Below the pieces are notes generated by a model. The model saw only the letters and a list, made by a program, of their open reading frames with translations. It was not told where the DNA came from and made no database searches. A program made the translations under genes and the position numbers. Positions 7,358-61,310 of a stretch of DNA of 64,000 nt are shown in pieces. This DNA comes from Fragilaria crotonensis (taxonomy: Eukaryota; Bacillariophyta; Fragilariophyceae; Fragilariales; Fragilariaceae). The DNA lies in the NCBI GenBank assembly GCA_022925895.1, contig JAKSYS010000135.1:43980-107979 (forward strand), read 5' to 3'. The stretch's first letter is position 1. Each line of letters begins with the position of its first letter.

Positions 7358-21952
<14,595 letters not shown>

Positions 21953-24435: not shown

Positions 24436-24509
24436 GAAAATGTAGCTTAATTGGTTAAAGCGTCGACCTGTCACGTCGAAGACTGCGGGTTCAAATCCCG
24501 TTTTTTTCG
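24436..24509 (+). tRNA. trnD: tRNA-Asp (GUC)
   Basis: Acceptor GAAAATG/TTTTTTC (one mismatch), D-arm GCTT...AGCG, anticodon stem TCGAC/GTCGA with loop CTGTCAC (anticodon GTC), T-arm GCGGG TTCAAAT CCCGT. It lies head-to-head with nad11. A copy of its 3' half recurs inside the nad4L units of the neighbouring array. Confidence 0.92.
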
Positions 24510-24584
24510 TATATTTAAATCTAAGTCCATAGTTTTTCAGGAGGAATAAGTCTTTTTACGGCAAGTTTCTGTGAATTTTTATAT

Positions 24585-25137
24585 TTGGAGAATACACCAA
24601 GTGTGTTTTTTATCTTATTTATTATTAGAGTGTTGACGGAATTTGTACCTCTGTGGCAGTTCGAATACATTCCTCCATCAGATATATAAATTTTAAAATA
24701 GGAATATATTCTAACACAGGCGTTTCGGATAATTTAATTAATATTAAAATATTATCTTTCGAAATTTTAATTAACCAGTTAAACGCAGTACTGTTGTAGA
24801 TAGGTGTTGTATAATCAAAATTTTTATCAGGAAGCTCAACGACACATATAAATATTTTGCGTATGGGTTGATAGAGGAGCTGCTTCCATCACCAGCTATA
24901 AAAGAAAAAAGGCTTTTATCTTTTTCCTTGCTCAGCCCTCTTTAGTTTTTTAAGAATTTCAGTAAGGGTTTCTTTAAGCTCACGATTTTTTTCAATTAAG
25001 GAATCCAACTCTGCAGTTAAACTCATTATCTGGTCGTGATACAAATAAAAATAAATATAAAAAATAACTAAAAAATTTATCAAAAAAAGAAAAATGATAA
25101 ATAAAGTTTGTGCTAAATTTTTTCTGTTATTTTTCAT
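24585..25137 (-). pseudogene. Degenerate copy of the orf220/orf226 family
   Basis: The first 73 codons (25137-24916) match the family: start MKNNRKNLAQTLF, one hydrophobic segment, then a charged coiled-coil stretch ending EQGKR. Beyond the stop, the remaining sequence still resembles the C-terminal half of the intact copies (GDG-S/S linker region near 24880, the C-terminal T-S-Q-like end near 24640) but with deletions and frame changes. It overlaps the end of nad4L copy 1 by 11 nt, as the intact copies do. This is the outermost, most diverged member of the array. Confidence 0.7.
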
Positions 25138-25519
25138 CGGGGGTTTTTTTTTTTTGAGAAGAGATTAAAGATGGATACTGCGGGTATAAATCCCGGCTTT
25201 TTCGTGTACTTAAATTAAAATTTTGATTTTTCACGACATCAAATGTTATAGTATTTTTTGTATTATGATATAATGTGAGTATTGATAAACCAATAGCAGA
25301 CTCGCTCGCTGCTATTGTTAAAATGAACAAAACAAAAATTTGACCAACAATATCATCAAATTGTTGTGAAAAAATTAAAAAATTTAAATTCACAGCTAAA
25401 AGCATTAATTCTATAGACATCATTGTTATAATAATATTTTTTCGATTTAATGCTACGCCAATCGTACCGGTAAAAAATAAAAAAGTTGTTAAACTTAAGA
25501 TTTCTATTAAAAGTATCAT
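25127..25519 (-). CDS. nad4L: NADH dehydrogenase subunit 4L, copy 1
   Basis: Small membrane subunit of complex I with three hydrophobic helices. It shows the family pattern [12 protein letters not shown] with its conserved glutamate and [16 protein letters not shown] with the second glutamate. Normal Nad4L ends near residue 100. Here the frame runs on to 130 residues through a tail (STRKSRDLYPQYPSL) whose DNA (about 25155-25200) copies the 3' half of trnD. The last 11 nt overlap the start of the downstream orf. Four copies exist; this one is identical in protein sequence to copies 2 and 4. Confidence 0.92.
   Translation of the reverse strand: MILLIEILSLTTFLFFTGTIGVALNRKNIIITMMSIELMLLAVNLNFLIFSQQFDDIVGQIFVLFILTIAASESAIGLSILTLYHNTKNTITFDVVKNQNFNLSTRKSRDLYPQYPSLISSQKKKTPDEK
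25150..25215 (-). repeat. trnD 3'-half-like fragment inside nad4L end
   Basis: Read on the plus strand, ACTGCGGGTATAAATCCCGG followed by CTTTTTCGTGTACTTAAATT matches the T-arm, acceptor and 3' flank of trnD (24482-24525). The same fragment is present in each nad4L copy (about 27530, 29925 and 31280). It forms the extra C-terminal codons of nad4L. Confidence 0.75.
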
Positions 25520-25528
25520 ATTTATTTA

Positions 25529-25601
25529 TGAGTACACTGGGATTTGAACCCAGGACCTGTGGATTAAAAGTCCAATGCTCTACCAATTGAGCTACGTACT
25601 C
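25529..25601 (-). tRNA. trnK: tRNA-Lys (UUU), copy 1
   Basis: Acceptor GAGTACG/TGTACTC, D-stem GCTC/GAGC, anticodon loop CTTTTAA (anticodon TTT), T-arm CTGGG TTCAAAT CCCAG. It is the first of six nearly identical copies, located between nad4L and an atp9 copy. Confidence 0.93.
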
Positions 25602-25631: not shown

Positions 25632-25860
25632 TTATAATGCGAAAAGAATTAAAAACGCGATCATTAACGCAAATAATGCTATAGCTTCGGTTAATGCAAA
25701 ACCTAAAATCGCCATCTTAAATAATTCATCTTTTAATGATGGATTTCTAGAAGTGCCTAATACCAATGCGCCAAAAACAGTTCCAATATCAATTACCTGC
25801 ACCTGCTAAACCTATTGTAGCTAAACCTGCACCTATACATTTTGCTGCTTGTAATAACAT
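25632..25860 (-). pseudogene. atp9: atp9 pseudogene A, copy 1 (frameshift)
   Basis: Nearly identical to the intact atp9 at 31738-31971 but with one extra base in ...AATATCAATTACC... (25785-25797). Translation from ATG therefore runs through ILE-GLY-rich helix 1 and hits TGA right after GLAGAGN. The second helix with the essential glutamate is in another frame. The start region also lost the upstream MF codons. Confidence 0.85.
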
Positions 25861-25887: not shown

Positions 25888-26550
25888 CTAAAGTATTGGT
25901 GGAACTTGTGACGCCACTGTGGCTGTGGTATCTACGATATTTATTAAAGTAGGCATATTAGCTGGAGCTGTTCGAATAGTTTTCTCCATTAGATGTATCA
26001 CCTCTATAACAGATGTGTAATGTGTATCAGGGTCGTCTGATAACTTAATAAATATCGCAACATTCTTTTTCGATATTGTAACTAACCAGTCATAATCAGT
26101 ACCGTCATAGGCGGTAGTTGCAAATTCACAGTATCTATCAGGAAACTCTTTAAAATTTTGAATATACGCAGATATGCCAGTTTTTATTGCTACAAAAGGA
26201 GCGGGCCACACTTTTGCGCAGACAATTATAACCACAACGGCACAAGCGCACACACATAAATATTTGACATATGGACTGATAGAGGAGCCGCTTCCATCAC
26301 CAGCTATAGAAGAAAAGAGGCTTTTATTTTTTCCTTGCTCTGCCACCTCTAATTTTTTAAGAGCCTCAACAATGGCTCCTTGAAGCTGCTGATTTTTTTC
26401 CTTTAAGGAATCCAACTCAGCAGCTAAACAGATTACCTGGTCGTGATACAAATAAAAATAAAAAAAAATAATAATTAAAAAATCTATCAAAAAAATAAAA
26501 ATGATAGGCAAAATCAGATTGGATGTATTAATATTCTTAAAGACTTTCAT
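25888..26550 (-). CDS. orf220, unrecognised two-segment membrane protein, copy 1
   Basis: I do not recognise this 220-residue protein. Visible parts: an N-terminal hydrophobic segment (about residues 12-33), a charged heptad-like stretch (about 40-72; ELDSLKEKNQQLQG) likely to form a coiled coil, a Gly/Ser linker GDGSGSSISPYVKYL, and a second hydrophobic segment with cysteines (about 98-116; CVCACAVVVIIVC) ending KVWPAPF. A polar domain of about 100 residues follows with YDWLVTISK and an aliphatic/acidic end. orf226 has the same layout. It sits directly after a trnK, where nad4L sits in other units. Copies keep open frames and a conserved C-terminal region, which suggests selection. Confidence 0.7.
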   Translation of the reverse strand: MKVFKNINTSNLILPIIFIFLIDFLIIIFFYFYLYHDQVICLAAELDSLKEKNQQLQGAIVEALKKLEVAEQGKNKSLFSSIAGDGSGSSISPYVKYLCVCACAVVVIIVCAKVWPAPFVAIKTGISAYIQNFKEFPDRYCEFATTAYDGTDYDWLVTISKKNVAIFIKLSDDPDTHYTSVIEVIHLMEKTIRTAPANMPTLINIVDTTATVASQVPPIL

Positions 26551-26559
26551 ATTTATTTA

Positions 26560-26632
26560 TGAGTACACTGGGATTTGAACCCAGGACCTGTGGATTAAAA
26601 GTCCAATGCTCTACCAATTGAGCTACGTACTC
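26560..26632 (-). tRNA. trnK: tRNA-Lys (UUU), copy 2
   Basis: Same cloverleaf and anticodon TTT as the other five copies. It sits upstream (in transcription) of orf220 rather than nad4L. Confidence 0.93.
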
Positions 26633-26661
26633 CAATGAATTGTGGTTGATTAAGAAAAAAA

Positions 26662-26810
26662 TTATAATGCGAAAAGAATTAAAAACGCGATCATTAATGC
26701 AAAATGTAAAATCATCATTTTAAAGATTTCATCTTTTAATGATAGATTTCTAGGAGTTCCAAGACCAACATCTATCCATTTTGCTGCTTGTATTAACATG
26801 AACACAACAT
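26662..26810 (-). pseudogene. atp9: atp9 pseudogene B, copy 1 (internal deletion)
   Basis: Keeps the first nine codons (MFMLIQAAK), then jumps past the glycine-rich first helix to the loop (RNLSLKDEIFK), and is deleted again near the end of helix 2. About 40% of atp9 is missing, including the proton-carrying helix, so it cannot make a c-ring subunit. The join is identical in three copies. Confidence 0.85.
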
Positions 26811-26836
26811 AAATGTGTCTTTTATCTTATTTATTC

Positions 26837-27517
26837 TTAGAATATTGGCAGAACTTGTGAGGTAGTTGCTGTGGCGTCTACAATATTCACAAGGTGAATC
26901 ATATGGTTAGATAAATAAGGATTCGAAGATAATGTACCTTCATCAGCACATTTTTGTAGCATATCTACAAATATATCTATAGGCAAGTACACTGCATCAG
27001 GTGCTGTGGTAAACTTAATGAATACATCTATTTGGTCTAAAGACGAAGTAATCAACCAGTCATACGAAGTACCCTCAGGAGAAACCGTCCTAAATCGAAG
27101 AGTTTCTGTACTAGAATCCCCAAAACAACTTAAAATATACGAAAAAGTGCAATTTTTTATTGCAATAAATGGAGCAGGCCAGACTTTTACGCAAACAATA
27201 ACAACTACAACGGCACAAGCACACCCACACAAATATTTTAGATATGGGTTGATAGAGGAGCTGCCTCCATCACCAACTAAGGAAGAAAAAAAAAACTCTT
27301 TTTTAATTTGCTCAGCCCCCTCTAGTTTCTTAAAGACCTCAATAAGAGTATCTTCAATCACTTTATTTTTTTCATGCAAAGAGACTATCTCTGCCTGAAT
27401 AGCCGTTACCGGGACGTAATACAAATAATAATAAACGCATAAAAGAAATATTAAATTTATCAAAAAAAGAAAAATGATAAATAAAGTTTGTGCTAAATTT
27501 TTTCTGTTATTTTTCAT
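26837..27517 (-). CDS. orf226, unrecognised two-segment membrane protein, copy 1
   Basis: 226-residue paralogue of orf220 with the same order: N-terminal hydrophobic segment (about residues 9-31), coiled-coil-like stretch (about 38-70), linker GDGGSSSINPYLKYL, cysteine-containing second hydrophobic segment (CGCACAVVVVIVC), KVWPAPF, then a polar domain with SYDWLIT and IVDATAT near the end. The two proteins differ mainly in the C-terminal domain. Its ATG lies inside the 3' end of nad4L (11-nt overlap), so it is probably co-transcribed with nad4L. No known family comes to mind. Confidence 0.7.
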   Translation of the reverse strand: MKNNRKNLAQTLFIIFLFLINLIFLLCVYYYLYYVPVTAIQAEIVSLHEKNKVIEDTLIEVFKKLEGAEQIKKEFFFSSLVGDGGSSSINPYLKYLCGCACAVVVVIVCVKVWPAPFIAIKNCTFSYILSCFGDSSTETLRFRTVSPEGTSYDWLITSSLDQIDVFIKFTTAPDAVYLPIDIFVDMLQKCADEGTLSSNPYLSNHMIHLVNIVDATATTSQVLPIF

Positions 27518-27899
27518 CGGGGGTTTTTTTTTTTTGAGAAGAGATTAAAGATGGATACTGCGGGTATAAATCCCGGCTTTTTCGTGTACTTAAATTAAAA
27601 TTTTGATTTTTCACGACATCAAATGTTATAGTATTTTTTGTATTATGATATAATGTGAGTATTGATAAACCAATAGCAGACTCGCTCGCTGCTATTGTTA
27701 AAATGAACAAAACAAAAATTTGACCAACAATATCATCAAATTGTTGTGAAAAAATTAAAAAATTTAAATTCACAGCTAAAAGCATTAATTCTATAGACAT
27801 CATTGTTATAATAATATTTTTTCGATTTAATGCTACGCCAATCGTACCGGTAAAAAATAAAAAAGTTGTTAAACTTAAGATTTCTATTAAAAGTATCAT
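27507..27899 (-). CDS. nad4L: NADH dehydrogenase subunit 4L, copy 2
   Basis: 130-residue product identical to copy 1, with the same trnD-derived C-terminal tail and 11-nt overlap with orf226. Intact. Confidence 0.92.
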   Translation of the reverse strand: MILLIEILSLTTFLFFTGTIGVALNRKNIIITMMSIELMLLAVNLNFLIFSQQFDDIVGQIFVLFILTIAASESAIGLSILTLYHNTKNTITFDVVKNQNFNLSTRKSRDLYPQYPSLISSQKKKTPDEK

Positions 27900-27908
27900 A
27901 TTTATTTA

Positions 27909-27981
27909 TGAGTACACTGGGATTTGAACCCAGGACCTGTGGATTAAAAGTCCAATGCTCTACCAATTGAGCTACGTACTC
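27909..27981 (-). tRNA. trnK: tRNA-Lys (UUU), copy 3
   Basis: Identical cloverleaf, anticodon TTT. It lies between nad4L copy 2 and atp9 pseudogene A copy 2. Confidence 0.93.
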
Positions 27982-28010
27982 CAATGAATTGTGGTTGATT
28001 AAGAAAAAAA

Positions 28011-28239
28011 TTATAATGCGAAAAGAATTAAAAACGCGATCATTAACGCAAATAATGCTATAGCTTCGGTTAATGCAAAACCTAAAATCGCCATCTTAAA
28101 TAATTCATCTTTTAATGATGGATTTCTAGAAGTGCCTAATACCAATGCGCCAAAAACAGTTCCAATATCAATTACCTGCACCTGCTAAACCTATTGTAGC
28201 TAAACCTGCACCTATACATTTTGCTGCTTGTAATAACAT
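28011..28239 (-). pseudogene. atp9: atp9 pseudogene A, copy 2 (frameshift)
   Basis: Same single-base insertion and premature TGA as copy 1, about 2,379 bp away. The shared lesion shows that it predates the last duplication. Confidence 0.85.
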
Positions 28240-28266
28240 ATACACAACATAAATCTGTTTTTATTA

Positions 28267-28929
28267 CTAAAGTATTGGTGGAACTTGTGACGCCACTGTG
28301 GCTGTGGTATCTACGATATTTATTAAAGTAGGCATATTAGCTGGAGCTGTTCGAATAGTTTTCTCCATTAGATGTATCACCTCTATAACAGATGTGTAAT
28401 GTGTATCAGGGTCGTCTGATAACTTAATAAATATCGCAACATTCTTTTTCGATATTGTAACTAACCAGTCATAATCAGTACCGTCATAGGCGGTAGTTGC
28501 AAATTCACAGTATCTATCAGGAAACTCTTTAAAATTTTGAATATACGCAGATATGCCAGTTTTTATTGCTACAAAAGGAGCGGGCCACACTTTTGCGCAG
28601 ACAATTATAACCACAACGGCACAAGCGCACACACATAAATATTTGACATATGGACTGATAGAGGAGCCGCTTCCATCACCAGCTATAGAAGAAAAGAGGC
28701 TTTTATTTTTTCCTTGCTCTGCCACCTCTAATTTTTTAAGAGCCTCAGCAATGGCTCCTTGAAGCTGCTGATTTTTTTCCTTTAAGGAATCCAACTCAGC
28801 AGCTAAACAGATTACCTGGTCGTGATACAAATAAAAATAAAAATAAAAAATAACTAAAAAATCTATCAAAAAAATAAAAATGATAGGCAAAATCAGATTG
28901 GATGTATTAATATTCTTAAAGACTTTCAT
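28267..28929 (-). CDS. orf220, copy 2
   Basis: 220 residues, differing from copy 1 by only a few residues (for example a few changes in the first hydrophobic segment and one Val/Ala). Same two hydrophobic segments, coiled-coil stretch and C-terminal domain. The substitutions are confined to tolerant positions and the frame is intact. Confidence 0.7.
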   Translation of the reverse strand: MKVFKNINTSNLILPIIFIFLIDFLVIFYFYFYLYHDQVICLAAELDSLKEKNQQLQGAIAEALKKLEVAEQGKNKSLFSSIAGDGSGSSISPYVKYLCVCACAVVVIIVCAKVWPAPFVAIKTGISAYIQNFKEFPDRYCEFATTAYDGTDYDWLVTISKKNVAIFIKLSDDPDTHYTSVIEVIHLMEKTIRTAPANMPTLINIVDTTATVASQVPPIL

Positions 28930-28938
28930 ATTTATTTA

Positions 28939-29011
28939 TGAGTACACTGGGATTTGAACCCAGGACCTGTGGATTAAAAGTCCAATGCTCTACCAATTGA
29001 GCTACGTACTC
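28939..29011 (-). tRNA. trnK: tRNA-Lys (UUU), copy 4
   Basis: Same tRNA, anticodon TTT. Its flank differs from the other copies by one base just outside the acceptor (CTAATG instead of CCAATG on the plus strand). Confidence 0.93.
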
Positions 29012-29040
29012 TAATGAATTGTGGTTGATTAAGAAAAAAA

Positions 29041-29189
29041 TTATAATGCGAAAAGAATTAAAAACGCGATCATTAATGCAAAATGTAAAATCATCATTTT
29101 AAAGATTTCATCTTTTAATGATAGATTTCTAGGAGTTCCAAGACCAACATCTATCCATTTTGCTGCTTGTATTAACATGAACACAACAT
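29041..29189 (-). pseudogene. atp9: atp9 pseudogene B, copy 2
   Basis: Same internally deleted atp9 as at 26662-26810. Confidence 0.85.
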
Positions 29190-29215
29190 AAATGTGTCTT
29201 TTATCTTATTTATTC

Positions 29216-29894
29216 TTAGAATATTGGCAGAACTTGTGAGGTAGTTGCTGTGGCGTCTACAATATTCACAAGGTGAATCATATGGTTAGATAAATAAGGA
29301 TTCGAAGATAATGTACCTTCATCAGCACATTTTTGTAGCATATCTACAAATATATCTATAGGCAAGTACACTGCATCAGGTGCTGTGGTAAACTTAATGA
29401 ATACATCTATTTGGTCTAAAGACGAAGTAATCAACCAGTCATACGAAGTACCCTCAGGAGAAACCGTCCTAAATCGAAGAGTTTCTGTACTAGAATCCCC
29501 AAAACAACTTAAAATATACGAAAAAGTGCAATTTTTTATTGCAATAAATGGAGCAGGCCAGACTTTTACGCAGACAATAACAACTACAACGGCACAAGCA
29601 CACCCACACAAATATTTTAGATATGGGTTGATAGAGGAGCTGCCTCCATCACCAACTAAGGAAGAAAAAAAAAACTCTTTTTTAATTTGCTCAGCCCCCT
29701 CTAGTTTCTTAAAGACCTCAATAAGAGTATCTTCAATCACTTTATTTTTTTCATGCAAAGAGACTATCTCTGCCTGAATAGCCGTTACCGGGACGTAATA
29801 CAAATAATAATAAACGCATAAAAGAAATATTAAATTTATCAAAAAAGAAAAATGATAAATAAAGTTTGTGCTAAATTTTTCTGTTATTTTTCAT
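29216..29894 (-). pseudogene. orf226, copy 2 (5' frame broken)
   Basis: From residue 20 onward (29842 down to 29216) it is identical to orf226 copy 1. The first 20 codons are out of frame because two homopolymers (A7 to A6 near 29842 and T6 to T5 near 29875) are one base shorter than in the sister copies. This is likely a consensus error confined to 29840-30240; if so the gene is intact. Confidence 0.65.
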
Positions 29895-30270
29895 CGGGGT
29901 TTTTTTTTGAGAAGAGATTAAAGATGGATACTGCGGGTATAAATCCCGGCTTTTCGTGTACTTAAATTAAAATTTTGATTTTTCACGACATCAAATGTTA
30001 TAGTATTTTTGTATTATGATATAATGTGAGTATTGATAAACCAATAGCAGACTCGCTCGCTGCTATTGTTAAAATGAACAAAACAAAAATTTGACCAACA
30101 ATATCATCAAATTGTTGTGAAAAAATTAAAAAATTTAAATTCACAGCTAAAAGCATTAATTCTATAGACATCATTGTTATAATAATATTTTTTCGATTTA
30201 ATGCTACGCCAATCGTACCGGTAAAAAATTAAAAAGTTGTTAAACTTAAGATTTCTATTAAAAGTATCAT
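29884..30270 (-). pseudogene. nad4L: nad4L, copy 3 (frameshifted)
   Basis: Same gene as copies 1, 2 and 4 but about six bases shorter overall. Several runs are shortened (the G5T12 run became G4T8 near 29895; T6 to T5 near 30008) and one is shifted (AAAAAATTAAAAAG near 30226). Every change is in a homopolymer, as expected from uncorrected long reads. A nonfunctional copy is the alternative. Confidence 0.7.
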
Positions 30271-30279
30271 ATTTATTTA

Positions 30280-30352
30280 TGAGTACACTGGGATTTGAAC
30301 CCAGGACCTGTGGATTAAAAGTCCAATGCTCTACCAATTGAGCTACGTACTC
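30280..30352 (-). tRNA. trnK: tRNA-Lys (UUU), copy 5
   Basis: Same cloverleaf, anticodon TTT. Here it is followed by the type B atp9 pseudogene, so the orf220 module is absent from this unit. Confidence 0.93.
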
Positions 30353-30381
30353 CAATGAATTGTGGTTGATTAAGAAAAAAA

Positions 30382-30537
30382 TTATAATGCGAAAAGAATT
30401 AAAAACGCGATCATTAATGCAAAATGCAAAATGTAAAATCATCATTTTAAAGATTTCATCTTTTAATGATAGATTTCTAGGAGTTCCAAGACCAACATCT
30501 ATCCATTTTGCTGCTTGTATTAACATGAACACAACAT
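30382..30537 (-). pseudogene. atp9: atp9 pseudogene B, copy 3
   Basis: Internally deleted atp9 with an extra 7-base duplication (AAAATGC) relative to the other type B copies near 30420. The open frame then runs on downstream by chance. Confidence 0.82.
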
Positions 30538-30563
30538 AAATGTGTCTTTTATCTTATTTATTC

Positions 30564-31244
30564 TTAGAATATTGGCAGAACTTGTGAGGTAGTTGCTGTG
30601 GCGTCTACAATATTCACAAGGTGAATCATATGGTTAGATAAATAAGGATTCGAAGATAATGTACCTTCATCAGCACATTTTTGTAGCATATCTACAAATA
30701 TATCTATAGGCAAGTACACTGCATCAGGTGCTGTGGTAAACTTAATGAATACATCTATTTGGTCTAAAGACGAAGTAATCAACCAGTCATACGAAGTACC
30801 CTCAGGAGAAACCGTCCTAAATCGAAGAGTTTCTGTACTAGAATCCCCAAAACAACTTAAAATATACGAAAAAGTGCAATTTTTTATTGCAATAAATGGA
30901 GCAGGCCAGACTTTTACGCAGACAATAACAACTACAACGGCACAAGCACACCCACACAAATATTTTAGATATGGGTTGATAGAGGAGCTGCCTCCATCAC
31001 CAACTAAGAAAGAAAAAAAAAACTCTTTTTTAATTTGCTCAGCCCCCTCTAGTTTCTTAAAGACCTCAATAAGAGTATCTTCAATCACTTTATTTTTTTC
31101 ATGCAAAGAGACTATCTCTGCCTGAATAGCCGTTACCGGGACGTAATACAAATAATAATAAACGCATAAAAGAAATATTAAATTTATCAAAAAAAGAAAA
31201 ATGATAAATAAAGTTTGTGCTAAATTTTTTCTGTTATTTTTCAT
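30564..31244 (-). CDS. orf226, copy 3
   Basis: 226 residues, one substitution from copy 1 (Ser to Phe before the linker). Intact frame overlapping nad4L copy 4 by 11 nt. It has the same two hydrophobic segments, coiled-coil stretch and polar C-terminal domain as copy 1. Confidence 0.7.
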   Translation of the reverse strand: MKNNRKNLAQTLFIIFLFLINLIFLLCVYYYLYYVPVTAIQAEIVSLHEKNKVIEDTLIEVFKKLEGAEQIKKEFFFSFLVGDGGSSSINPYLKYLCGCACAVVVVIVCVKVWPAPFIAIKNCTFSYILSCFGDSSTETLRFRTVSPEGTSYDWLITSSLDQIDVFIKFTTAPDAVYLPIDIFVDMLQKCADEGTLSSNPYLSNHMIHLVNIVDATATTSQVLPIF

Positions 31245-31626
31245 CGGGGGTTTTTTTTTTTTGAGAAGAGATTAAAGATGGATACTGCGGGTATAAATCC
31301 CGGCTTTTTCGTGTACTTAAATTAAAATTTTGATTTTTCACGACATCAAATGTTATAGTATTTTTTGTATTATGATATAATGTGAGTATTGATAAACCAA
31401 TAGCAGACTCGCTCGCTGCTATTGTTAAAATGAACAAAACAAAAATTTGACCAACAATATCATCAAATTGTTGTGAAAAAATTAAAAAATTTAAATTCAC
31501 AGCTAAAAGCATTAATTCTATAGACATCATTGTTATAATAATATTTTTTCGATTTAATGCTACGCCAATCGTACCGGTAAAAAATAAAAAAGTTGTTAAA
31601 CTTAAGATTTCTATTAAAAGTATCAT
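31234..31626 (-). CDS. nad4L: NADH dehydrogenase subunit 4L, copy 4
   Basis: Intact 130-residue copy nearest to the functional atp9, in the order atp9-trnK-nad4L. This is probably the ancestral locus from which the array grew. Identical protein to copies 1 and 2. Confidence 0.93.
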   Translation of the reverse strand: MILLIEILSLTTFLFFTGTIGVALNRKNIIITMMSIELMLLAVNLNFLIFSQQFDDIVGQIFVLFILTIAASESAIGLSILTLYHNTKNTITFDVVKNQNFNLSTRKSRDLYPQYPSLISSQKKKTPDEK

Positions 31627-31635
31627 ATTTATTTA

Positions 31636-31708
31636 TGAGTACACTGGGATTTGAACCCAGGACCTGTGGATTAAAAGTCCAATGCTCTACCAATTGAGCT
31701 ACGTACTC
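31636..31708 (-). tRNA. trnK: tRNA-Lys (UUU), copy 6
   Basis: Same tRNA between the intact atp9 and nad4L copy 4, likely the original copy. Confidence 0.93.
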
Positions 31709-31737: not shown

Positions 31738-32013
<276 letters not shown>

Positions 32014-56399: not shown

Positions 56400-59300
56400 A
56401 AATCATAAAACAACATTTTTTGCTAAAACTTTGCCCTCTTTTTGGTAATTTTATGTGAAAAACACCGTTTTTAGTTACTTTGGTATAAAAATACCTAAAA
56501 GTCTGTAAACATTTTTATCGAAAAAAAAATAAGTGAACATTTTTACTTTTCTCTATATTAATGAAAAAATTTCCGTCGTACTTTTTTTTTGCAAATTGCA
56601 TTTAAAATTGTGTTATTTTTATTTAATACAACTTCGTTTTACTGTTTTTCGTCAAAACCTTTCCAATTGGAGTCGTTGGAAACTAAAAATGTACGCAGTT
56701 TGTTCGATTTTGTTGCTTTTTATGAAAACAATACAATTTCCATCGAATTTGAAACTCAAAATTACACTTTCCGTCAAACCTTTCGGATTTAATTGATTGC
56801 TAATTTAAAATCTCACTTTTCGTAAATGCTTCTAAAAAAACGATATTTTGATTTGTTTTAAGACAAATTGTGCTTTTTTAGGCAAAAGCACAGACTACTG
56901 TCTGTACTCGCAAAAATGGCTTCATTTTTCCCTTGGCCCATAAGGGAAAAATTTAGCCTGTTTTTTTATTTTTTTGCTTTTTTACCCTCTTTTGGTAATT
57001 TTATGTGAAAAACACCTTTTTTAGTTACTTTGGTATAAAAATACCTAAAAGTCTGTAAACATTTTTATCGAAAAAAAAATAAGTGAACATTTTTACTTTT
57101 CTCTATATTAATGAAAAAATTTCCGTCGTACTTTTTTTTGCAAATTGCATTTAAAATTGTGTTATTTTTATTTAATACAACTTCGTTTTACTGTTTTTTC
57201 GTCAAAACCTTTCCAATTGGAGTCGTTGGAAACTAAAAAATGTACGCAGTTTGTTCGATTTTGTTGCTTTTTATGAAAACAATACAATTTCTATCGAATT
57301 TGAAACTCAAAATTACACTTTTCGTCAAACCTTTCTGATTTTATCGATGGTTGTTGAAAAACGCAGAAAGATTTGTTACAGTTTTTTCCGTCAAACCTTT
57401 CTGATTTAATTGATTGCTAATTTAAAATCTCACTTTTCGTAAATGCTTCTAAAAAAACGATATTTTGATTTGTTTTAAGACAAATTGTGCTTTTTTAGGC
57501 AAAAGCACAGACTACTGTCTGTACTCGCAAAAATGGCTTCATTTTTCCCTTGGCCCATAAGGGAAAAATTTAGCCTGTTTTTTTATTTTTTTGCTTTTTT
57601 ACCCTCTTTTGGTAATTTTATGTGAAAAACACCTTTTTTAGTTACTTTGGTATAAAAATACCTAAAAGTCTGTAAACATTTTTATCGAAAAAAAAATAAG
57701 TGAACATTTTTACTTTTCTCTATATTAATGAAAAAATTTCCGTCGTACTTTTTTTTTGCAAATTGCATTTAAAATTGTGTTATTTTTATTTAATACAACT
57801 TCGTTTTACTGTTTTTCGTCAAAACCTTTCCAATTGGAGTCGTTGGAAACTAAAAATGTACGCAGTTTGTTCGATTTTGTTGCTTTTATGAAAACAATAC
57901 AATTTCTATCGAATTTGAAACTCAAAATTACACTTTTCGTCAAACCTTTCTGATTTTATCGATGGTTGTTGAAAAACGCAGAAAGATTTGTTACAGTTTT
58001 TTCCGTCAAACCTTTCGGATTTAATTGATTGCTAATTTAAAATCTCACTTTTCGTAAATGCTTCTAAAAAAACGATATTTTGATTTGTTTTAAGACAAAT
58101 TGTGCTTTTTTAGGCAAAAGCACAGACTACTGTCTGTACTCGCAAAAATGGCTTCATTTTTCCCTTGGCCCATAAGGGAAAAATTTAGCCTGTTTTTTTA
58201 TTTTTTTGCTTTTTTACCCTCTTTTGGTAATTTTATGTGAAAAACACCTTTTTAGTTACTTTGGTATAAAAATACCTAAAAGTCTGTAAACATTTTTATC
58301 GAAAAAAATAAGTGAACATTTTTACTTTTCTCTATATTAATGAAAAATTTCCGTCGTACTTTTTTTGCAAATTGCATTTAAAATTGTGTTATTTTTATTT
58401 AATACAACTTCGTTTTACTGTTTTTTCGTCAAAACCTTTCCTATTGGAGTCGTTGGAAACTAAAAAATGTACGCAGTTTGTTCGATTTTGTTGCTTTTTA
58501 TGAAAACAATACAATTTCTATCGAATTTGAAACTCAAAATTACACTTTTCGTCAAACCTTTCTGATTTTATCGATGGTTGTTGAAAAACGCAGAAAGATT
58601 TGTTACAGTTTTTTCCGTCAAACCTTTCGGATTTAATTGATTGCTAATTTAAAATCTCACTTTTCGTAAATGCTTCTAAAAAAACGATATTTTGATTTGT
58701 TTTAAGACAAATTGTGCTTTTTTAGGCAAAAGCACAGACTACTGTCTGTACTCGCAAAAATGGCTTCATTTTTCCCTTGGCCCATAAGGGAAAAATTTAG
58801 CCTGTTTTTTTATTTTTTTGCTTTTTTACCCTCTTTTGGTAATTTTATGTGAAAAACACCTTTTTTAGTTACTTTGGTATAAAAATACCTAAAAGTCTGT
58901 AAACATTTTTATCGAAAAAAAAATAAGTGAACATTTTTACTTTTCTCTATATTAATGAAAAAATTTCCGTCGTACTTTTTTTTGCAAATTGCATTTAAAA
59001 TTGTGTTATTTTTATTTAATACAACTTCGTTTTACTGTTTTTCGTCAAAACCTTTCCAATTGGAGTCGTTGGAAACTAAAAATGTACGCAGTTTGTTCGA
59101 TTTTGTTGCTTTTTATGAAAACAATACAATTTCTATCGAATTTGAAACTCAAAATTACACTTTTCGTCAAACCTTTCTGATTTTATCGATGGTTGTTGAA
59201 AAACGCAGAAAGATTTGTTACAGTTTTTTCCGTCAAACCTTTCGGATTTAATTGATTGCTAATTTAAAATCTCATTTTTCGTAAATGCTTCTAAAAAACG

Positions 59301-61310
59301 ATATTTTGATTTGTTTTAAGACAAATTGTGCTTTTTAGGCAAAAGCACAGACTACTGTCTGTACTCGCAAAAATGGCTAAATTTTTCCTTGGCCCATAAG
59401 GGAAAAATTTAGCCTGTTTTATTTTTTTTTTACCCTCTTTTGGTAATTTTATGTGAAAAACACCTTTTTAGTTACTTTGGTATAAAAATACCTAAAAGTC
59501 TGTAAACATTTTTATCGAAAAAAATAAGTGAACATTTTTACTTTTCTCTATATTAATGAAAAATTTCCGTCGTACTTTTTTTTGCAAATTGCATTTAAAA
59601 TTGTGTTATTTTTATTTAATACAACTTCGTTTTACTGTTTTTTCGTCAAAACCTTTCCAATTGGGGTCGTTGGAAACTAAAAAATGTACGCAGTTTGTTC
59701 GATTTTGTTGCTTTTTATGAAAACAATACAATTTCTATCGAATTTGAAACTCAAAATTACACTTTTCGTCAAACCTTTCTAATTTTATCGATGGTTGTTG
59801 AAAAACGCAGAAAGATTTGTTACAGTTTTTTCCGTCAAACCTTTCGGATTTAATTGATTGCTAATTTAAAATCTCACTTTTCGTAAATGCTTCTAAAAAA
59901 ACGATATTTTGATTTGTTTTAAGACAAATTGTGCTTTTTTAGGCAAAAGCACAGACTACTGTCTGTACTCGCAAAAATGGCTTCATTTTTCCCTTGGCCC
60001 ATAAGGGAAAAATTTAGCCTGTTTTTTTATTTTTTTGCTTTTTTACCCTCTTTTTGGTAATTTTATGTGAAAAACACCTTTTTTAGTTACTTTGGTATAA
60101 AAATACTTAAAAGTCTGTAAACATTTTTATCGAAAAAAAATAAGTGAACATTTTTACTTTCCTCTATATTAATGAAAAAATTTCCGTCATACTTTTTTTT
60201 TGCAAATTGCATTTAAAATTGTGTTATTTTTATCTAATGGATACCACTTCGTTGTACTGTTTTTTCGTCAAAACCTTTCCAATTGGAGTCGTTGGAAACT
60301 AAAAAATGTACGCAGTTTGTTCGATTTTGTTGCTTTTTATGAAAACAATACAATTTCCATCGAATTTGAAACTCAAAATTACACTTTTCGTCAAACCTTT
60401 CTGATTTTATCGATAGTTGTTGAAAAACACAGAAAGATTTGTTACTGTTTTTCCGTCAAACCTTTCGGATTTAATTGATTGCTAATTTAAAATCTCACTT
60501 TTCGTAAATGCTTCGAAAAAGCGATATTTTGATTTGTTTTAAGACAAATTGTGCTTTTTTAGGCAAAAGCACAGACTACTGTCTGTACTCGCAAAAATGG
60601 CTTCATTTTTCCCTTGGCCCATAAGGGAAAAATTTAGCCTGTTTTTTTATTTTTTTGCTTTTTTACCCTCTTTTTGGTAATTTTATGTGAAAAACACCTT
60701 TTTTAGTTACTTTGGTATAAAAATACTTAAAAGTCTGTAAACATTTTTATCGAAAAAAAATAAGTGAACATTTTTACTTTCCTCTATATTAATGAAAAAA
60801 TTTCCGTCGTACTTTTTTTTTGCAAATTGCATTTAAAATTGTGTTATTTTTATCTAATGGATACCACTTCGTTGTACTGTTTTTTCGTCAAAACCTTTCC
60901 AATTGAAGTCGTTGGAAACTAAAAAATGTACGAAGTTTGTTCGATTTTGTTGCCTTTTATGAAAACAATACAATTTCCATCGAATTTGAAACTCAAAATT
61001 ACACTTTTCGTCAAACCTTTCGGATTTAATTGATTGCTAATTTAAAATCTCACTTTTCGTAAATGCTTCGAAAAAAGCGATGTTTTGATTTGTTTTAAGA
61101 CAAATTCTGCTTTTTTAGGCAAAAGCACAGACTACTGTCTGTACTCGCAAAAATGGCTTCATTTTTCCCTTGGCCCATAAGGGAAAAATTTAGCCTGTTT
61201 TTTTAATTTTTTGCTTTTTTACCCTCCTTTTGATAATTTTATGTGAAAAACACCGTTTTTAGTTACTTTGGTATAAAAATACCTAAAAGTCTGTAAACAT
61301 TCTTACTTTT
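56400..61310. repeat. Eight direct tandem repeats of about 0.55-0.62 kb
   Basis: Non-coding. The anchor AAGTGAACATTTTTAC begins at about 56531, 57081, 57698, 58310, 58925, 59526, 60142 and 60762, giving spacings of 550, 617, 612, 615, 601, 616 and 620. The first and last units lack a block of about 65 bases (ATTTTATCGATGGTTGTTG... region). Short frames of 60-98 codons repeat with the DNA and show no coding sign. Such arrays are typical of large diatom-type mitochondrial genomes. Confidence 0.93.
56868..56968. repeat. Hairpin cluster inside each tandem unit (first example)
   Basis: Consecutive inverted repeats: GTGCTTTT/AAAAGCAC, ACAGAC/GTCTGT (loop TACT) and TCCCTT/AAGGGA (loop GGCCCAT). TTTGT/ACAAA lies just upstream, and another hairpin GGTAT/ATACC lies in the other half of the unit. 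The cluster recurs in every unit, including the inverted ones, with the stems conserved even where the rest varies. Confidence 0.8.

Follow-up and report, generated by a model that had tools for sequence, protein, structure and literature searches.

In the mitochondrial genome of the diatom Fragilaria crotonensis, we identified a family of open reading frames (ORFs), orf220 and orf226, whose divergence is under purifying selection and which, judged by the sequence collections searched, is an orphan family. Its copies are embedded in a gene array between rpl16 and nad11. The DNA analysed here (the window, to which coordinates refer unless the contig is named) comprises the last 64,000 bases of the 107,979-base contig C880 (JAKSYS010000135.1), part of a 62-Mb assembly in 881 contigs; with bacterial-type rRNAs, a mitochondrial tRNA set, and genes for complexes I/III/IV/V and ribosomal proteins, this contig is the mitochondrial genome. 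The explanation that we favor, to which we give about an even chance, is that orf220 and orf226 encode a family of accessory inner-membrane proteins that entered with an ancient insertion and was then amplified by recombination.

An earlier note on this DNA had described the ORFs between 25888 and 31244 as a two-segment membrane protein family. The ORFs are present there on the minus strand and form two subfamilies, 48% identical, and alignment bears out the common plan that was claimed for them: a first helix (about residues 12-30, orf220 numbering), a coiled coil, a GDGxxSSSI linker, a Cys-rich second helix (about residues 97-115) in the segment YLCxCACAVVVxIVCxKVWPAPF, and an (S/D)YDWL motif. 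The invariant columns of the alignment take in nearly all of the linker and second helix. In its best register, the core of the four-heptad coiled coil reads LLLNLIAL for orf220 and IILNILVL for orf226; the two subfamilies carry an Asn at one shared core position, as parallel dimeric coiled coils typically do. The N-tail has positive charges and no acidic residues, and the positive-inside rule would place it and the C-terminal domain in the matrix; the coiled coil and Gly/Ser linker would then face the intermembrane space. The AlphaFold models, one of the whole protein and one of the C-terminal domain alone, had a mean predicted local distance difference test (pLDDT) of 44 and 42, respectively, low confidence throughout, and were too poor to serve as fold-search queries. 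Both models have a strand at YDWL and another at the next FIK segment, followed by a helix and then a strand, so the C-terminal part is possibly a small alpha/beta domain.

Between orf220 and orf226, the proportions of nonsynonymous and synonymous differences (pN and pS) over the whole protein were 0.316 and 0.492, and dN/dS (omega) was 0.51, not the value near one by which the earlier note would have seen its reading refuted. Among 600 neutral simulations (100 for each combination of three transition biases and two base compositions), not one gave an omega as low, which marks these ORFs as encoding a protein under constraint, with helix 2 the most strongly held. By segment, omega was 0.48 in helix 1 and the coiled coil, 0.22 in the linker and helix 2, and 0.60 in the C-terminal domain. 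Taken alone, the linker and helix 2 were clearly below neutrality (0/600 simulations as low); the N-terminal segment and the C-terminal domain were only marginally so, with 0-14 and 1-10 of 100 simulations per setting, respectively, as low. The suggestion that the subfamilies differ mainly in their last 110 residues needs amending: the linker and helix 2 are indeed conserved (pN 0.10) and the C-terminal domain is not (0.42), but the N-terminal 80 or so residues have diverged as well (0.30).

Within each subfamily, the copies differ little. The two orf220 copies are separated by four nucleotide differences, all replacement and in register, and the orf226 copies of units 1 and 4 by two. Such few and mild differences had been noted before, with an implication of constraint that does not hold: nad4L, trnK, and the spacers are as alike between repeat units as the orfs, so the near-identity reflects recent duplication or conversion. 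The orf226 copy in unit 2 has a broken N-terminal frame, for which sequencing error is likely, since every indel separating unit 2 from unit 1 sits in a homopolymer, alignment ends excepted. Antisense to orf226, every copy holds a 130-amino-acid ORF with a GTG start (27006-27398, 29385-29777, and 30733-31125, plus strand), probably a mechanical by-product. A sixth, degenerate copy at 24625-25137, which the earlier note had not described, is chimeric, its first ~21 residues being orf226-like and the next ~50 orf220-like. Its second helix is deleted, its frame is broken, and FNWL stands where YDWL is expected; its C-terminal part is a third lineage. Compared with either subfamily, it gives a dN/dS close to one (~0.8 to 1.6, depending on the segment), as a dead gene would.

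The family is as unrecognized as first claimed in every collection searched, a set that did not extend to eukaryotic organelle and protein databases. Pfam, NCBIfam, PHROGs, PADLOC, and PDB sequences gave no match to orf220 or orf226 above a curated cut-off, nor any with an E value below 1e-3. The best matches under the cut-off were weak coiled-coil or helix similarities (such as Chordopox_G3, E 0.019, and SusR_regulator, E 0.003, whose 16.8 bits compare with a cut-off of 480) and were judged to be chance. No relative emerged from three scans of viral contigs or from those of prokaryote genomes, phages, and plasmids; the one phage match, 36 residues long with an E value of 0.2, was also put down to chance. 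In a six-frame search of the 62-Mb host assembly, every match lay inside the array on C880, and no segment of either ORF matched a resident gene. No extrachromosomal element in the assembly carries the ORF, although a plasmid missing from the assembly would escape this search. Identity with atp8, tatC, rps10, rpl5, or cox3 is ruled out, as these genes, along with atp6, were all identified elsewhere in the mitochondrial genome. In our literature searches, we found no earlier description of the array.

The array, likewise an addition to the earlier note, consists of six units of the form atp9-trnK-(nad4L)-orf and contains six trnK genes, four nad4L copies, a single intact atp9, and six members of the orf family, five of them nearly complete and the sixth ruined (Table 1). 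In the order of transcription, rpl16 is followed by unit 1 (intact atp9, trnK, nad4L, orf226), unit 2 (shortened atp9, trnK, frameshifted nad4L, orf226), unit 3 (shortened atp9, trnK, orf220), unit 4 (frameshifted atp9, trnK, nad4L, orf226), unit 5 (shortened atp9, trnK, orf220), and unit 6 (frameshifted atp9, trnK, nad4L, relic), and then by trnD on the opposite strand and nad11. Apart from the copy at the head of the array, every atp9 on the mitochondrial contig is broken or shortened. The start of orf226 overlaps nad4L, and orf220 lies behind trnK and a ATAAATAAAT-ATG leader common to orf220 and nad4L starts, which suggests that both are placed for expression from the nad4L transcript. The 3' ends of orf226 run into ACACATTTATGTTGTGTTCATGTT, which is also found ahead of the intact atp9 in the rpl16-atp9 spacer and so marks a duplication joint.

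Two further features bear on where the family came from. The Pfam nad4L model stops near residue 96 of 130, and in all nad4L copies, part of the ~34-residue C-terminal tail beyond it is read from an antisense trnD 3' end. It thus seems that nad4L grew longer by reading on through trnD 3'-end sequence. This 42-bp repeat, located in the last third of nad4L, takes in the trnD 3' end and 15 bases of flank; it scored 49, against a maximum of 37 in 1000 shuffles and 22 for the next best tRNA. The orf-bearing DNA is therefore flanked by the intact trnD and a second copy of its 3' end, the pattern left by an insertion at a tRNA 3' end. A 16-bp candidate remnant of the rpl16 3' end beside trnD was unconvincing, with 21/2000 shuffles scoring as high. 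The GC content at third codon positions (GC3) of the orfs is 0.29, which departs from the resident genes (0.18; p ~1e-7; four-fold sites p 2e-4) and resembles the intron-encoded ORFs (0.27; p 0.43). Together, the repeat and the GC3 favor, without proving, arrival with a mobile element, for which the mitochondrial insertions of Leucomyxa and Marophrys, compared below, are precedents.

Several points weigh against this reading. The trnD repeat could stem from an ordinary local duplication, which would look alike, and the skewed GC3 could reflect relaxed selection or recent origin. The low-confidence models confirm neither fold nor topology. Neither a plasmid contig nor a second phage-type RNA polymerase was found in the assembly: the genome search with PF00940 (RNA polymerase) gave one match, on contig C327 rather than the mitochondrial contig, which we read as the host polymerase. 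PF03175, the plasmid-type DNA polymerase (dpo), had no match in the genome, in a search whose control was silent too. The plasmid or mobile-element origin raised in the earlier note gains indirect support from the repeat and the intron-like GC3.

Under the insertion explanation, orf220 and orf226 would encode real mitochondrial inner-membrane proteins, accessory rather than core, each anchored by its two helices and paired through the coiled coil as a parallel dimer. The ancestral gene most likely arrived on plasmid- or retroelement-like mobile DNA that would have inserted at the trnD 3' end, between nad4L and nad11, leaving on the far side a copy of the tRNA 3' end that is now read as part of the nad4L tail. 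The gene may then have come to be expressed within the nad4L transcript, with orf226 translationally coupled to nad4L and orf220 taking the place of nad4L behind a duplicated trnK leader. Repeated duplication of atp9-trnK-nad4L-orf, with joints at the short shared ACACATTTATGTTGTGTTCATGTT, would have built the array. Within it, atp9 and some of the nad4L copies would have decayed; the exposed domains of the orf copies would have diverged, with helix 2 held under strong constraint. Rather than acting as a respiratory-chain subunit, the membrane protein most likely serves the element or modulates the inner membrane.

The same observations can be read in other ways. The family might instead be a fast-evolving, vertically inherited ochrophyte mitochondrial gene located between nad4L and nad11, such as a diverged accessory subunit of the respiratory chain, ATP synthase, or mitoribosome, which was duplicated with its neighbors. 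Purifying selection, the operon-like overlap with nad4L, and the position among standard genes all suit this idea, and unassigned ORFs are a known feature of ochrophyte mitochondrial genomes, some of them possibly genes too diverged to be recognized (PMC11528492). However, the GC3 is unlike that of resident genes, the insertion is bracketed by the tRNA repeat, and the six genes named above were located elsewhere in this genome. We also know of no standard missing mitochondrial gene with a helix-coiled coil-helix-domain layout, and on balance we regard vertical descent as unlikely. A little less probable still is a lineage-specific chimeric or de novo ORF of the type behind plant cytoplasmic male sterility (CMS), where recombination would have set new frames behind duplicated atp9-trnK leaders to yield a conflict-type inner-membrane protein. 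The orfs do lie behind duplicated, decayed atp9-trnK leaders, and an orphan membrane-protein sequence with a recombined relic is what such a process might produce, but no segment of the ORFs matched a resident gene, and three deeply diverged paralogues, two of them constrained, imply an old gene. We know of no sex-linked cytoplasmic conflict in such algae.

It is also conceivable, but very unlikely, that the array is wholly or largely an assembly artefact of long-read errors and collapsed or expanded repeats, with really one orf220 and one orf226. Positions 1-26317 of contig C880 repeat 81641-107975 (window 37662-63996), a 26.3-kb end overlap at 99% identity from which we conclude that the molecule maps as a circle of ~81.7 kb; its 187 gap openings against 10 mismatches indicate residual single-base length errors in the assembly. 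Such errors split several genes in one copy only of the overlap. The near-identity of the orf226 copies and the homopolymeric indels of unit 2 point the same way, and possible assembly error has to be kept in view whenever frameshifts or copy number are taken from this contig. Yet orf220, orf226, and the relic are too deeply diverged for the family itself to be an artefact, the orf220 copies carry in-register replacement substitutions, and units with and without nad4L and two kinds of atp9 remnant cannot derive from one unit.

Table 1. Features of the array and its flank, in order of transcription of the array (window coordinates).
Feature	Position	Strand	Basis and remarks
atp9, sole intact copy, array head	31738-31965	-	75-amino-acid ORF, 100% open
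trnK, unit 1	31636-31708	-	ARAGORN, Rfam tRNA
nad4L, unit 1, 130 amino acids	31234-31626	-	Pfam Oxidored_q2 at residues 9-96 (identical copy); C-terminal tail aligned to trnD
Copy of trnD 3' end and 3' flank in nad4L tail	31284-31325	+	42 bp, 84% identity to 24482-24524
orf226, unit 1	30564-31244	-	226-amino-acid ORF, alignment; start overlaps nad4L end by 11 nt
atp9 pseudogene, shortened, unit 2	30382-30526	-	Sequence read: deletions, essential Glu region lost
trnK, unit 2	30280-30352	-	ARAGORN
nad4L, unit 2	29882-30270	-	Copy comparison; homopolymer frameshifts, probably assembly error
orf226, unit 2	29216-29894 (open frame 29216-29842)	-	Two homopolymer deletions break N-terminal frame; 98% identical over residues 12-226
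atp9 pseudogene, shortened, unit 3	29041-29178	-	Sequence
trnK, unit 3	28939-29011	-	ARAGORN
orf220, unit 3	28267-28929	-	Intact ORF; begins 9 nt past trnK, at nad4L start site of other units
atp9 copy with +1 frameshift, unit 4	28011-28239	-	Sequence
trnK, unit 4	27909-27981	-	ARAGORN
nad4L, unit 4, intact	27507-27899	-	100% identical copy
orf226, unit 4	26837-27517	-	Intact ORF
atp9 pseudogene, shortened, unit 5	26662-26799	-	Sequence
trnK, unit 5	26560-26632	-	ARAGORN
orf220, unit 5	25888-26550	-	Intact ORF
atp9 copy, +1 frameshift identical to that of unit 4, unit 6	25632-25860	-	Sequence
trnK, unit 6	25529-25601	-	ARAGORN
nad4L, unit 6, intact	25127-25519	-	Pfam, copy comparison
Relic orf copy (third subfamily), unit 6	24625-25137	-	Six-frame search, alignment
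trnD	24436-24509	+	ARAGORN, Rfam; 3' end and flank (24482-24524) form other side of direct repeat

In the mitochondrial contig, the gene order rpl2-rps19-rps3-rpl16-atp9-nad4L-nad11 is one that we take to suggest a stramenopile. Group II introns are numerous. At 17956-21468, a cox1 exon is continuous with an ORF resembling a group II intron reverse transcriptase/maturase (1170 codons), and introns in cox1, cob, and the large rRNA hold further ORFs of this kind. The cox3 ORF (contig positions 36966-38216; L012:6966-8216) encodes 416 amino acids, with ~155 residues preceding the COX3 domain, and a 540-residue ORF at contig positions 32682-34304 (L012:2682-4304) has only a marginal Pfam match, to DUF2573 (E 7e-5). 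Direct repeats of ~612 bp are present in many copies at ~56768-61034, followed by inverted and rearranged copies on to 64000.

Orphan mitochondrial ORF families are a known category, and orf220 and orf226 belong to it. Plant CMS ORFs are likewise orphan membrane ORFs behind duplicated resident mitochondrial leaders, but they are usually chimeras of resident gene pieces, whereas orf220 and orf226 are without resident homology. Supernumerary mitochondrial ORFs without clear homologues are described in bivalves and polychaetes (PMC9727918, PMC10721130); these are animal lineages, and the likeness to orf220 and orf226 is one of description alone. The mitochondrial genome of Marophrys carries the integrated linear-plasmid polymerase genes dpo and rpo beside a ~7.6-kb duplication of resident genes, with a link between the two drawn tentatively (PMC6425028). 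Our array would similarly pair proposed foreign genes in protist mitochondrial DNA with duplicated resident genes, although no dpo or rpo was found in this host's mitochondrial contig (the control for the dpo search being silent).

The nearest published parallel is the ochrophyte Leucomyxa plasmidifera, whose 23-kb mitochondrial plasmid pLPM and a related cob-intron insert together encode 14 orphan proteins (PMC11528492). This family has one helix in a conserved N-terminal domain of ~40 residues, a near-invariant His, a CM motif, and variable C-terminal extensions, and the plasmid also encodes an RNA polymerase and a major facilitator superfamily (MFS) transporter (PMC11528492). Like the pLPM proteins, orf220 and orf226 are orphan membrane-anchored paralogues with a conserved helix region and a variable C-terminus in an ochrophyte mitochondrion, linked in their case to a proposed insertion. 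Compared by description only, the pLPM family differs in being plasmid-borne and one-helix, with no described coiled coil and no YDWL, and on reading both orf subfamilies against that description, we found no CM motif after helix 1, so that the His-helix-CM pattern defining the pLPM family is absent. Membership in the pLPM family is therefore not supported, while the functional parallel seems a good one.

A bolder proposal, which we consider distinctly unlikely, is that a stramenopile mitochondrial mobile element unknown to date integrates at tRNA 3' ends, much as bacterial tRNA-targeted islands do, and that its cargo, a dimeric two-helix membrane protein, was domesticated and amplified in the nad4L transcript. 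If the insertion explanation that we favor is true, orf220 and orf226 would be the second orphan membrane-protein family tied to ochrophyte mitochondrial insertions, after that of Leucomyxa, and such mobile cargo would look recurrent in ochrophyte mitochondrial genomes. The case would also show how an insertion can add tRNA-derived codons to nad4L, an essential gene, while driving the tandem amplification of atp9-trnK-nad4L.

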